Virus record (IMG/VR): IMGVR_UViG_3300028925_015497 | Coordinates: 1 to 40,329 of that record | Length of the DNA stretch: 40,329 nt | Source of the DNA: a virus | Reading direction: 5' to 3' (one strand) | Shown: one piece after another, positions 233-6,010 of the stretch | Layout: the number at the start of each line of letters is the position of its first letter | Numbering within the stretch: the stretch's first letter is position 1 | The notes under the pieces: model-generated | What the model was told of the DNA's origin: nothing | The model's database searches: none | Seen by the model: the letters and a program-made list of their open reading frames with translations, nothing else | Position numbers and translations under genes: made by a program

Positions 233-748
233 TCATGACAATTCTAGGCCTTGACCGTGTCTACCTTCGCATTTCTGCCGATTGAGGGTATCGGCAATAC
301 CACCGATCGCGCGCGTGTAGCGGCGGCGCAGACCGTGCGCACCTATCTTCACCCCCATCGGACGGCGCAGCCGCATCCATGACACCCGTGCCCGCCCGCT
401 CGCCAGCTGAACCAGCGCCAGCACCACCAGCTTGCGGTCACGCTCCGGCACATGGGCCAGCCACCCGCTGGCCTGATCGCGGGCAGCGACATCAGCGCGC
501 GTCATCGCTGCCGATCGCAGCGGCACGTCGCTCGACACGCCGTCACCGCCACGCGCGTCATAGTCGCCCAGCCAAGCCTCGCGCACCATCAGCTCCCATG
601 GCCCGTCACCGGCATATGGCCCGCGACCAGGTCCGACCCTGCCCGGCGTCCGCCACCATATCCGCACTGCCTCGACCATCTGCTCTTGCACCATATCGAA
701 CGTCCAATGCCCCAGTGTCGAGGCCAATGCTGCCTGTCCTATGTTCAT
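233..748 (-). CDS. Small HTH-like protein, candidate late-gene regulator
   Basis: This encodes about 171 residues, starting at the ATG at 748, which is preceded by GGAGAGGG at suitable spacing. A longer frame exists upstream but would run through the repeat field. The protein is helical and basic. Its C-terminal part, including RRPMGVKIGAHGLRRRYTRA, resembles the helix-turn-helix of small phage late-gene regulators (RinA, ArpU or sigma-region-4-like). It is the last gene of the early operon and lies next to cos, so on circular DNA it is immediately upstream of the terminase genes. That position suits a late activator, but the function is inferred and no family is firmly recognised. Confidence 0.6.
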   Translation of the reverse strand: MNIGQAALASTLGHWTFDMVQEQMVEAVRIWWRTPGRVGPGRGPYAGDGPWELMVREAWLGDYDARGGDGVSSDVPLRSAAMTRADVAARDQASGWLAHVPERDRKLVVLALVQLASGRARVSWMRLRRPMGVKIGAHGLRRRYTRAIGGIADTLNRQKCEGRHGQGLELS

Positions 749-1160
749 GACCAGCCCTCTCCACGCAAAACTGCGACAAACAGGGTATCTCTCCACTGGC
801 CCGCTCCATTTGGAGAGACCTCTCCACTCTCGCCGCACCATGATTTGTCCCTGCTTTTCATATGCTTCCCTTTCATTCCTGACCTATATTCTTCTCTATT
901 TGGAGAGATTGGAGAGACATTCTGTATAGATTACACACCTGACCCGCGCGCACATGTGTATGTGGAGTTGATGCGGTTTCTCTCTCCTTACTCTCCAAAC
1001 CCGCACGGCTCCGCCCTTTCCTCTCTCCAAACCACCATTTTAAGGGTCTCTCCACGCCTCTCCAATTGGAGAGATGATTTGTCCGCCGAACCCGGCGAAA
1101 AGCCCGGTCGCCTGCGCCTTTGACGCCTCGCGCGTCCGATATTGTCAAGCGTCCGGTGCA
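749..1160. repeat. Iteron-like repeat field, candidate replication origin
   Basis: This 412-base gap between the small HTH gene and the helicase gene holds eleven exact copies of the 7-mer CTCTCCA or its complement TGGAGAG. They lie at 757-763, 788-794, 811-817, 820-826, 901-907, 910-916, 991-997, 1022-1029, 1047-1054, 1058-1064 and 1067-1073. Most extend to 8-9 bases (TTGGAGAGA). Two copies form a perfect 16-bp palindrome, CTCTCCAATTGGAGAG, at 1058-1073, and 900-917 is a tandem pair. The stretch 841-900 is AT-rich compared with its surroundings. Repeats plus an AT-rich tract beside an SF3 helicase gene suggest an origin. Regulator binding sites are the alternative. Confidence 0.55.
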
Positions 1161-3011
1161 TCAGTCAAATCCCGGCACGGCATCGCCGCCGCCACTGTCA
1201 TCTGCGCCCGTCGAACCATCGAAATCACCATCGTCGACCGCCGTCCAGTGCCCGTCCTCGATCGCCGACTTGTTCACCATGATCGACAGGCCCAGCCATT
1301 TGGTCCCGTTGCTGTGCTTGTCCTTGAAGCCCTTGTCGCGCATCGCCCCGGCGAAACCCTGCACGGTCCAGTCGGCCGCACCTGCATCCTTGCCCCATGC
1401 CAGGAACGTCTCGTAGAGCTCTTTCGACGGGGCCTTGCCGGCAGGATCGATGACACAGCATTGCGACAGGAAGCGGCCCAGCGGATCGCTGTCGTCGCGA
1501 TATTGCTTGGTCGCGGCGGTGATCTGGGCCGGCTCGATCAGGCCATTGGCCTTCAGGTCGAGCAGGCCGCGCAGCAGCCGGTTGAATATGCCCGACGCTT
1601 CGCCCTGCAGCTTCTGCGCCAGCTTTGCGTCGATATCCTTCTCGGGGATCTGCACGTCCCAGGGGACCAGCTTCAGCCGCGCCCACATGCCATAGCTGTT
1701 GTCCTTGATCACCGGCTTGTTGTTGCCGGAAATGGTCATCTTGAACTCGGGCAGGAAGGTGAAGAAACCCTTGTTCAGATGCCGGGCATCGACCGGATCG
1801 CCACCGGTCACCTGCTTGATCAGCCCTTCATTCAGTTTCTGCCCCTTGGAGGGCTCGGAGACACGGAGAAAGCGGACGCCAGGCAGGCGGGCGATGTCGG
1901 GCGTGGCCTGGTCGCCGCGCCGCTGGCCGCCGCCGGTCATGAAACTCTCGATCGGAATGCTTCCGGCATAGTCGCCGATGATATGGGCCCAGGTCTCGAC
2001 CGTGACGCCCTTGCCGTTGCGGCCCTTGCCATAGAAGAATGCCAGTTTCTGCTCGCCTATATCGCCTGTCAGCGACAATCCGCCCCACTGGTCTACAAAT
2101 CGCTGCATGTCGGCATGCGGCTGCACGGTGTCCAGGAAGGCGTCATATAGCGGGCATTTCTTGCGCGGCGCATATTCGACATTGGCCAGCTTTGTGATGA
2201 GGTCGGCAGGATCGTGCGGATATTCGCGCTCCTGCCAGACGGTGTGATATTCGGACTTGCCGGCCTCGATATCGGCGCGCGGCCGCCTCTGCGACTTGAA
2301 CTCGATCCGGATCGTGCCGGTCAGCGTGTTGATCGCCATCCGGTCCTGGTCGAGCTGCTCGGGACGGATCACGATATCGTCGAAATTCTTGGCCAGAGTC
2401 GCGATGCAGTTGATCCGCGCACTGCCTTCGGACGCCCGCGCCCATATCTTGAGCTGGTCGGAAAACAGCACCGCTTCCTTGTTCGGCTTGATCTTGATCA
2501 CCCGGTTGAGATGGCCCAGTTCATCGAACGCGCGCGCCATTTGATCATCATCGCCGATCCGCTTGTCATAGAGCTCACTATGCTTGCCGACATCGGCCAA
2601 TATGTTCTGACGCTTCTGTTCGATCAGCAGCGCATCCTCAAACCGCTCGAACCCGGTCGCCTCGACCAGCTTCGCCTCGAACATGATGCTGCGCACCGTG
2701 GCATAGACCGCCTGCATCACCCGGGCGGGCATCTTGTCCTTTTCCTCCGACAACAGCTGCCAGCGCCGGCCATCCCACGCAAACCAGCCTATTTCGGCGC
2801 AGAAACGGAACATGTGGCCGTAGCGCAGCCGAAACCGCTCGGCATTGCCCAGGTCGGTCATCGGGAGGAAACAGGCCCGCGCATCGCGTTCCATATCCGG
2901 GCGACACGGCACCCGGTGATCACGAGGAGTCGACTCCCCAGATTCAGCGGGTGCTGGACCAGCGGCGGAAGCACCCGGCTTCCCCGCGACAGGATTGGAT
3001 CTGGCTGTCAT
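1161..3011 (-). CDS. SF3 replicative helicase, D5/P4 type
   Basis: This 616-residue protein is a phage/plasmid D5-type helicase. A D5_N-like region lies roughly at residues 50-290 (for example the GWFAWDGRRW segment). The superfamily 3 ATPase core follows with Walker A GKGRNGKG near residue 330, an acidic segment RFLRVSEP acting as Walker B, motif C TISGNNKP and an arginine-bearing GMWARLKLVPW. A P4-type C-terminal winged domain ends the protein. SF3 helicases form hexamers that unwind at the origin, and the repeat field lies directly downstream. No primase catalytic domain is apparent, so this looks like the helicase half of the usual primase-helicase. The ATG at 3011 follows the previous stop after 3 bases and has a weak ribosome binding site. 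Confidence 0.88.
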   Translation of the reverse strand: MTARSNPVAGKPGASAAGPAPAESGESTPRDHRVPCRPDMERDARACFLPMTDLGNAERFRLRYGHMFRFCAEIGWFAWDGRRWQLLSEEKDKMPARVMQAVYATVRSIMFEAKLVEATGFERFEDALLIEQKRQNILADVGKHSELYDKRIGDDDQMARAFDELGHLNRVIKIKPNKEAVLFSDQLKIWARASEGSARINCIATLAKNFDDIVIRPEQLDQDRMAINTLTGTIRIEFKSQRRPRADIEAGKSEYHTVWQEREYPHDPADLITKLANVEYAPRKKCPLYDAFLDTVQPHADMQRFVDQWGGLSLTGDIGEQKLAFFYGKGRNGKGVTVETWAHIIGDYAGSIPIESFMTGGGQRRGDQATPDIARLPGVRFLRVSEPSKGQKLNEGLIKQVTGGDPVDARHLNKGFFTFLPEFKMTISGNNKPVIKDNSYGMWARLKLVPWDVQIPEKDIDAKLAQKLQGEASGIFNRLLRGLLDLKANGLIEPAQITAATKQYRDDSDPLGRFLSQCCVIDPAGKAPSKELYETFLAWGKDAGAADWTVQGFAGAMRDKGFKDKHSNGTKWLGLSIMVNKSAIEDGHWTAVDDGDFDGSTGADDSGGGDAVPGFD

Positions 3012-3635: not shown

Positions 3636-3878
3636 CTAGACCAGCCCCAGCGCCGCTTTATAGGTCTCCAGCACCGCCTCCATTTCCTGACGGTCATGGG
3701 TCTCCATCTTGCGCAGCTTCACCACCTGGCGCATGATGCGCGCGTCATAGCCCTGAGATTTCGCCTCGGAATAGACATCGCGAATATCGTCCGCCATGCC
3801 CTTTTTCTCTTCTTCCAGGCGCTCGATCCGCTCGATAAACAGCCTGAGCTGCTCCGCCGCCACATTCCCCTCGCTCAT
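3636..3878 (-). CDS. gapR: GapR family DNA-binding protein (DUF2312)
   Basis: This 80-residue protein matches the GapR/DUF2312 family along its whole length: an N-terminal coiled helix ([19 protein letters not shown]), the conserved [23 protein letters not shown] stretch read in two parts, and a C-terminal helix ending LETYKAALG. In Caulobacter GapR encircles overtwisted, AT-rich DNA ahead of replication forks and stimulates topoisomerases. A phage copy inside the replication operon could help phage forks or repackage host DNA; that role is inference. It overlaps the upstream gene by 4 bases and directly abuts the MazG fusion gene. Confidence 0.85.
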
Positions 3879-5118: not shown

Positions 5119-5720
5119 ACCACCTCCGCCAGTTCCGGCGCATCAAACTTGTCGCTCTGATTGCCCCAGCAATCCCATCCCGGCCTCGACTGGCGCGCAA
5201 AAAGTTCCACAAACTGAACGGCCCGAGGCATGATCTGTTCGCAGATTTCATACTGGTGATCTGGTTTACGGCTATGTTCGCGCCGTTTTTCAGTCAGATC
5301 GGCGCTGCAAATTACATTGCGGATATTTCGCGCCGTTTTTGGGGAACCAAGCGTGCCAATCAAAAAAGGCTCAGTCGCGGATCGCATGACGTAACCGGTT
5401 CCAAATCCTGATTTTCCATGGGTCGAAAGCTTGTGCCAGCTGCCGCCAGTCACATACCGGAATCCCCACGCCTCCAGTACGGAAAGGGCTTCGGTCAAGG
5501 AAGGCCAGCAGGCCCACATGAACAACAAGCAGTCACCGCGCCCCAATTCTGCCACCGGAAGCGCGCGGATATCATCCATCGTCATTGTGTCATAATGCTG
5601 GCTTTGGCTCTTGCCCTGCCCCTTTTCACTATGGGTCGTAAAATGCCACGGAGGATCAGCCAGAATCACATCATATGAAAGCGGGTTCAAAGGTTCGAAT
5701 GGCCAATTGGTAGCGCTCAT
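5115..5720 (-). CDS. MT-A70 family adenine methyltransferase
   Basis: The protein has 201 residues with the diagnostic catalytic motif DPPW at residues 22-25, following the strand SYDVILA. Further family features include YDTMTMDDIRALPV, the FMWACWPSL segment, and a C-terminal FVELFARQSRPGWDCWGN that closes the AdoMet pocket. MT-A70 enzymes transfer a methyl group to N6 of adenine in DNA or RNA; phage members usually modify DNA to evade restriction. The length suits a small phage member of the family. It overlaps its neighbours on both sides by 4 bases, inside a run with the C5-type enzyme and the DnaA-like protein. Confidence 0.88.
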   Translation of the reverse strand: MSATNWPFEPLNPLSYDVILADPPWHFTTHSEKGQGKSQSQHYDTMTMDDIRALPVAELGRGDCLLFMWACWPSLTEALSVLEAWGFRYVTGGSWHKLSTHGKSGFGTGYVMRSATEPFLIGTLGSPKTARNIRNVICSADLTEKRREHSRKPDHQYEICEQIMPRAVQFVELFARQSRPGWDCWGNQSDKFDAPELAEVV

Positions 5721-6010
5721 GCGACGCGCTCGAGCATTGCCACAACCGCAGCGTGGACCGGATTGACATCGGCTATCTCGACACTGCGGCGATGGGCATA
5801 GAGCGCGCTGGTGTGATTTCGGAAACCCAGGGCCCGGGCAATGCGGGGATAGGACCAGTTGTGCCGCTCTTTCATCACATGGCTGATGGCATAGCGGGCT
5901 TCACGGACCCTCTTCGTCGCAGACTTCCCGGGGCGGCAATGGGATTTGAGAGGGAATCCGACCATTTCTTCAAATCGCTCGATCAGGCTATGGCAGGGCG
6001 TATGATTCAT
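5717..6010 (-). CDS. DnaA domain IV-like DNA-binding protein
   Basis: This 97-residue protein has a central segment (about residues 35-80: REARYAISHVMKER, then WSYPRIARALGFRNHTSALYA in two parts). It matches the helix-turn-helix of DnaA domain IV, where the signature is normally GGRDHTTV followed by a basic helix; here it is GFRNHTSAL. The ATPase and other DnaA domains are absent. Stand-alone DnaA-C-like proteins occur in alphaproteobacterial phages and may bind DnaA boxes or phage repeats. Here it could serve as initiator or loader partner for the SF3 helicase, or as a competitor of host DnaA. It overlaps genes on both sides by 4 bases. Confidence 0.78.
   Translation of the reverse strand: MNHTPCHSLIERFEEMVGFPLKSHCRPGKSATKRVREARYAISHVMKERHNWSYPRIARALGFRNHTSALYAHRRSVEIADVNPVHAAVVAMLERVA

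Follow-up and report, generated by a model that had tools for sequence, protein, structure and literature searches.

The iteron array in its phage genome

The window, which is the whole stretch of 40,329 bases that was analysed, is a temperate siphophage of sphingomonad bacteria. By gene content it is a whole temperate phage genome, with integrase, repressor, capsid, portal, terminase and tail genes. The genes run in the order integrase, S24-type repressor, CII-like activator, early genes and helicase, followed by the array, then terminase, portal, capsid, tail and tape-measure. An 11-mer, CCTTCGGCCCC, is common to both contig ends (1–11 and 40319–40329). Three relatives (L002 at 2805, L010 at 12944 and L090 at 12947) have it once, in the stretch that separates the phrog_6836 gene from the terminase genes, and because of this single internal copy the contig looks as though it had been opened at a cos site. 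Judged from these matches, CCTTCGGCCCC is probably a cos site with 11-nt cohesive ends, and the window probably a complete phage genome. The early operon also encodes, two genes away from the helicase, a GapR-like DNA-binding protein (3636–3878, minus strand; PF10073, 3.5e-35).

The features discussed below, in coordinates of the window, are as follows.

233–748, minus strand: downstream gene, phrog_6836, present in 47 of 77 relatives; its product is a rival candidate binder
757–1073, no strand: iteron array, 11 exact CTCTCCA/TGGAGAG copies; putative replication origin
757–826: iteron cluster proximal to the downstream gene, 4 copies (at 757, 789, 811 and 820)
827–900, no strand: iteron-free stretch whose A+T content is in part above the phage average; candidate unwinding element
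901–907 and 910–916, no strand: tandem iteron pair, start spacing 9 bp
940–960, no strand: GCGCGCACATG element in the gap between iteron clusters
991–1073: iteron cluster proximal to the helicase stop, 5 copies (at 991, 1023, 1048, 1058 and 1067)
1058–1073, no strand: perfect 16-bp palindrome, CTCTCCAATTGGAGAG, two iterons head to head
1161–3011, minus strand: D5/SF3 helicase of the P4 family (TIGR01613, PF08706), 616 aa; proposed initiator
1242–1499, minus strand: predicted C-terminal winged-helix domain of the helicase, residues ~505–590; proposed origin-binding domain
1302–1316, minus strand: wing-tip codons, residues 566–570 (H S N G T), the positions that co-vary with iteron bases 3–5
5717–6010, minus strand: DnaA domain IV-only protein, 97 aa (PF08299, below cut-off); rival candidate binder

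An exact-match count confined all 11 copies of CTCTCCA/TGGAGAG in the window to 757–1073. Dinucleotide shuffles of 745–1160 (n = 2000) gave a mean of 0.12 copies and a maximum of 2. The intergenic gap that runs from the helicase stop (1161) to the phrog_6836 ATG (748) is filled by the array. A mechanical ORF could begin at 841, but close relatives begin that gene past their array, and for this reason we take the array to be non-coding. An earlier note on this DNA had described 11 exact repeats with a tandem pair and a perfect 16-bp palindrome in a non-coding stretch, all of which was borne out. The note had also placed the repeats next to an SF3 helicase gene; the array does adjoin it, and can be placed more precisely as downstream of that gene, not upstream. 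The AT-rich tract of the same account was present but modest, with G+C of ~37–40% over 60 bases on the downstream side of the tandem pair (~860–920) versus ~60% for the window.

The 9-bp spacing of the tandem pair is the commonest same-strand iteron spacing among relatives. The copy closest to the next gene (757–763) overlaps a possible Shine-Dalgarno sequence. In 42 of 77 relatives, GCGCGCA/TGCGCGC occurs no more than 350 bases from where the array starts, compared with 24% of control windows. An 11-bp direct repeat, ATGATTTGTCC, at 840–850 and 1074–1084 brackets most of the array, and in several relatives a similar sequence, GGCAAATC, adjoins the tandem pair; these are possibly a second origin motif. 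An Rfam search found no family. GC skew, a check proposed in the earlier note, showed no switch at the array when run across the window.

Arrays beside related helicases

Searches of viral sequences and of genomes, for which the helicase and its alignment served as queries, yielded ~120 loci, with Sphingorhabdus sp. 109 (L010) as the nearest relative. Arrays were called as 7-mer arrays at a fixed threshold (score ≤ −9). Most alphaproteobacterial relatives have an array of short repeats 3′ of the helicase gene: 57 of 83 had a 7-mer array downstream of the helicase, versus 3 of 330 control windows. Motifs refined by EM came out loose for some of the set, and exact words were counted instead. In five relatives (L008, L011, L014, L015 and L018) there is an insert between helicase and array, and the array remains beside the downstream gene. 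The related phage records that we examined annotate only a ‘primase’, and no origin.

The iteron shifts in register, being TGGAGAG in the clade of the window and TGGAGCA, TGGAAGG, CGGAAGG, TGGAAGT, TGGAACC, TGCAAGG or TGGGAGG elsewhere. The search of related prophages for the same motif beside D5 helicases, as the earlier note had advised, thus found the array in the same place but the motif diverged. Such a fixed place combined with a moving repeat sequence suggests a binding site co-evolving with its reader.

The helicase wing and the iteron bases

The helicase scored above the cut-off of TIGR01613, the P4-family helicase C-terminal profile (224.8 bits vs 108.7). Pfam found D5_N, with Pox_D5 and DUF5906 below cut-off only, and no fused primase domain. 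As a whole the helicase has a fold match to the SaPI5 primase-helicase 7ola. In structure models, pLDDT exceeded 85 over the C-terminal domain, where residues 569 and 570 lie at the tip and start of a beta hairpin following a helix; this hairpin corresponds to the wing of a predicted winged helix. The nearest solved folds to the isolated domain were the RFX1 DBD (1dp7) and then the origin-binding domain of phage P4 (1ka8), with weak Foldseek E-values (0.017, and 0.049 for the second-best, 1ka8). The RFX1 DBD reads bases through its wing, in line with the covariation that we observed at the wing tip of the helicase.

This covariation was measured as mutual information between iteron bases and 514 helicase columns in 77 loci. 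The top column for iteron base 4 was residue 569, which is Gly in 43/43 TGGA-type loci and non-Gly in 33/34 TGGG-type loci, L096 being the exception. For iteron base 5 the top column was the adjacent residue 570, Thr or Glu in 6/6 G-type loci and in 0/71 others; column 139 separates base 5 too, but is gappy. The link of Glu566 to iteron base 3 is suggestive only, because a single clade carries this residue and 13 columns separate base 3 equally well.

On a tree built from the helicase without its C-terminal domain, there were three independent changes of base 4, two of base 5 and one of base 3. The two changes of base 5 fell in the same clades as two changes of residue 570. A tree-aware sign test on independent pairs had too few events to reach significance, so that, with few independent base changes, the covariation is strong by rank and not by phylogenetic test. 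One locus, L053, has iterons of the TGGAA type, TGGAAGG, although nested among relatives of the TGGGA type, TGGGAGG, and there Gly569 was the most discriminating of 496 columns (0.97, the next 0.76).

Genomes fetched later served as a held-out set, most of it supplied by searches of Sphingomonadales and Rhizobiales; a class-wide genome search returned mostly distant helicases. Of 13 later loci in which the wing could be aligned and the YGGR array was clear, 12 fitted the base-4 rule, as counted by eye. Most of these loci belong to clades already seen, and we therefore treat the fit as confirmation rather than as new independent events. The rule fails in L096 and in the held-out L159, which has a weak array, and the base-5 rule may fail to extend to far relatives.

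We put forward tentatively, with slightly more doubt than belief, that in D5/P4-family phage helicases the wing tip contains a recognition code that can be read, with residues 566, 569 and 570 corresponding to iteron bases 3, 4 and 5. Origin specificity would then be predictable from protein sequence, and phages would form origin-specificity groups that change by stepwise wing-iteron co-evolution. Such a code linking helicase sequence to iteron sequence would be new if upheld by experiment; the kind of origin itself is already known. We found no earlier description in the open-access collection searched, from which subscription papers are mostly missing.

A putative origin and its proposed initiator

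We consider it very probable that the array is the replication origin of this temperate siphophage, with the D5/SF3 helicase from the gene immediately upstream acting as initiator. The helicase is the likely initiator because the iteron motif co-varies with the wing tip of its predicted C-terminal winged helix. The initiator-binding origin proposed in the earlier note is supported by this covariation and by the same-place arrays of relatives, from which we infer binding, replication and the origin activity of the array. The winged-helix domain would bind each TGGAGAG half-site, mainly via its wing (residues 566–570), and the tandem, head-to-head and converging half-sites would gather helicase hexamers. 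The neighbouring A+T-richer tract may then open, and the helicase would load itself. Priming and extension would then fall to the host, because no primase domain was seen in the helicase.

The repeats could instead be operators of a transcription factor, either the phrog_6836 product or another phage regulator, controlling the downstream gene and the late region. The array does end 9 bp from the phrog_6836 start codon, a weak promoter-like site overlaps it, and in several relatives with an inserted gene it is the phrog_6836 gene beside which the array stays. We nonetheless regard such operators as very unlikely. In 30 of the 77 array-bearing loci, among them the whole TGGGAGG Rhizobiales group, no phrog_6836-like gene was detected, and the motif co-varies instead with the helicase wing; 11 sites in mixed orientation over 317 bp would also be unusual for one promoter.

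A DnaA-like protein, another binder named in the earlier note, is indeed encoded in the window, and this orphan domain IV protein might bind the repeats as diverged DnaA boxes, since TTATCCA and CTCTCCA share the register xxxTCCA. It matches PF08299 and has a DnaA-like recognition helix (RNHTS vs RDHTT, Asn replacing Asp), and the TCCA end is retained in several variant iterons, not all. The TGGGAGG and TGCAAGG variants, however, break the resemblance, and sites within one mismatch of a DnaA box occur at chance level, with none in the array. Of 25 related phage records only 5 contained the protein, whereas the group commonly has arrays, and the DnaA-like binder is accordingly disfavoured, to the point of being extremely unlikely. 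No relatives of the protein were found in the viral contigs searched. The array might also be a packaging signal made of cosB-like terminase sites, given a putative cos ~0.75 kb away and the single CCTTCGGCCCC between the array region and the terminase genes in the three relatives mentioned above. The array and the terminase genes, however, stand on opposite sides of the putative cos, with one gene in between, which makes packaging unlikely, and since the array moreover tracks the helicase and not the terminase, we give this role a nearly negligible probability.

An origin read by the helicase has parallels in the SaPI/PICI Rep-ori replicons (SaPIbov1, SaPI5 PriRep 7ola and EcCICFT073), where, as is proposed here, an iteron origin lies directly 3′ of the initiator helicase gene. 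The C-terminal domain of SaPI Rep recognises iterons directly downstream of its gene (PMC7581432); a C-terminal domain as origin reader is predicted here, and the fold match to 7ola is a further likeness. In the origins of E. coli PICIs an A+T-rich region stands between two sets of iterons (PMC6092414); here there are three iteron clusters and the gap at 827–900 is only partly A+T-richer. Unlike these satellites, the window is a complete integrase-bearing sphingomonad siphophage, its helicase is without a fused primase domain, and its iteron sequence differs. Phage P4 alpha shares with our helicase the P4 family (TIGR01613) and a C-terminal winged helix resembling 1ka8; alpha is trifunctional, whereas Pfam found no primase domain here, and here every site belongs to a single compact array next to the gene. 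SCCmec Cch2 likewise has direct repeats downstream of its operon, and its isolated C-terminal domain binds them (PMC7581432), but these iterons are short (AAGTG), number three copies, and belong to another host and element. With the RFX1 DBD, the best fold match, our domain shares the fold and perhaps the mode of reading; RFX1 is a eukaryotic transcription factor, and we make no claim of family. A DnaA-box origin was considered and set aside, no cluster of DnaA boxes being found.

If the helicase is the initiator, these data place the origin and name a putative initiator across a broad group of temperate phages from alphaproteobacteria. Nature here supplies a series of helicase variants with their matching iterons, which makes testable an old question, how self-loading phage helicases choose their origin and how that choice changes without loss of function.

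Some loci lie further afield. Dense arrays of other repeats (TGCGAGGGTT, GGGAGGC), with up to 13 copies, come after Rhizobiales helicases that are more distant (L158, L161, L162, L164, L166, L170, L172, L173, L176, L178, L179 and L181–L184). The helicase of Microcystis phage Mae-JY28 (L196) is 54% identical to that of the window and is accompanied by TGGAAGG iterons, and its C-terminal stretch is nearly the same as that of L004; the recorded Microcystis host may instead be an associated alphaproteobacterium.
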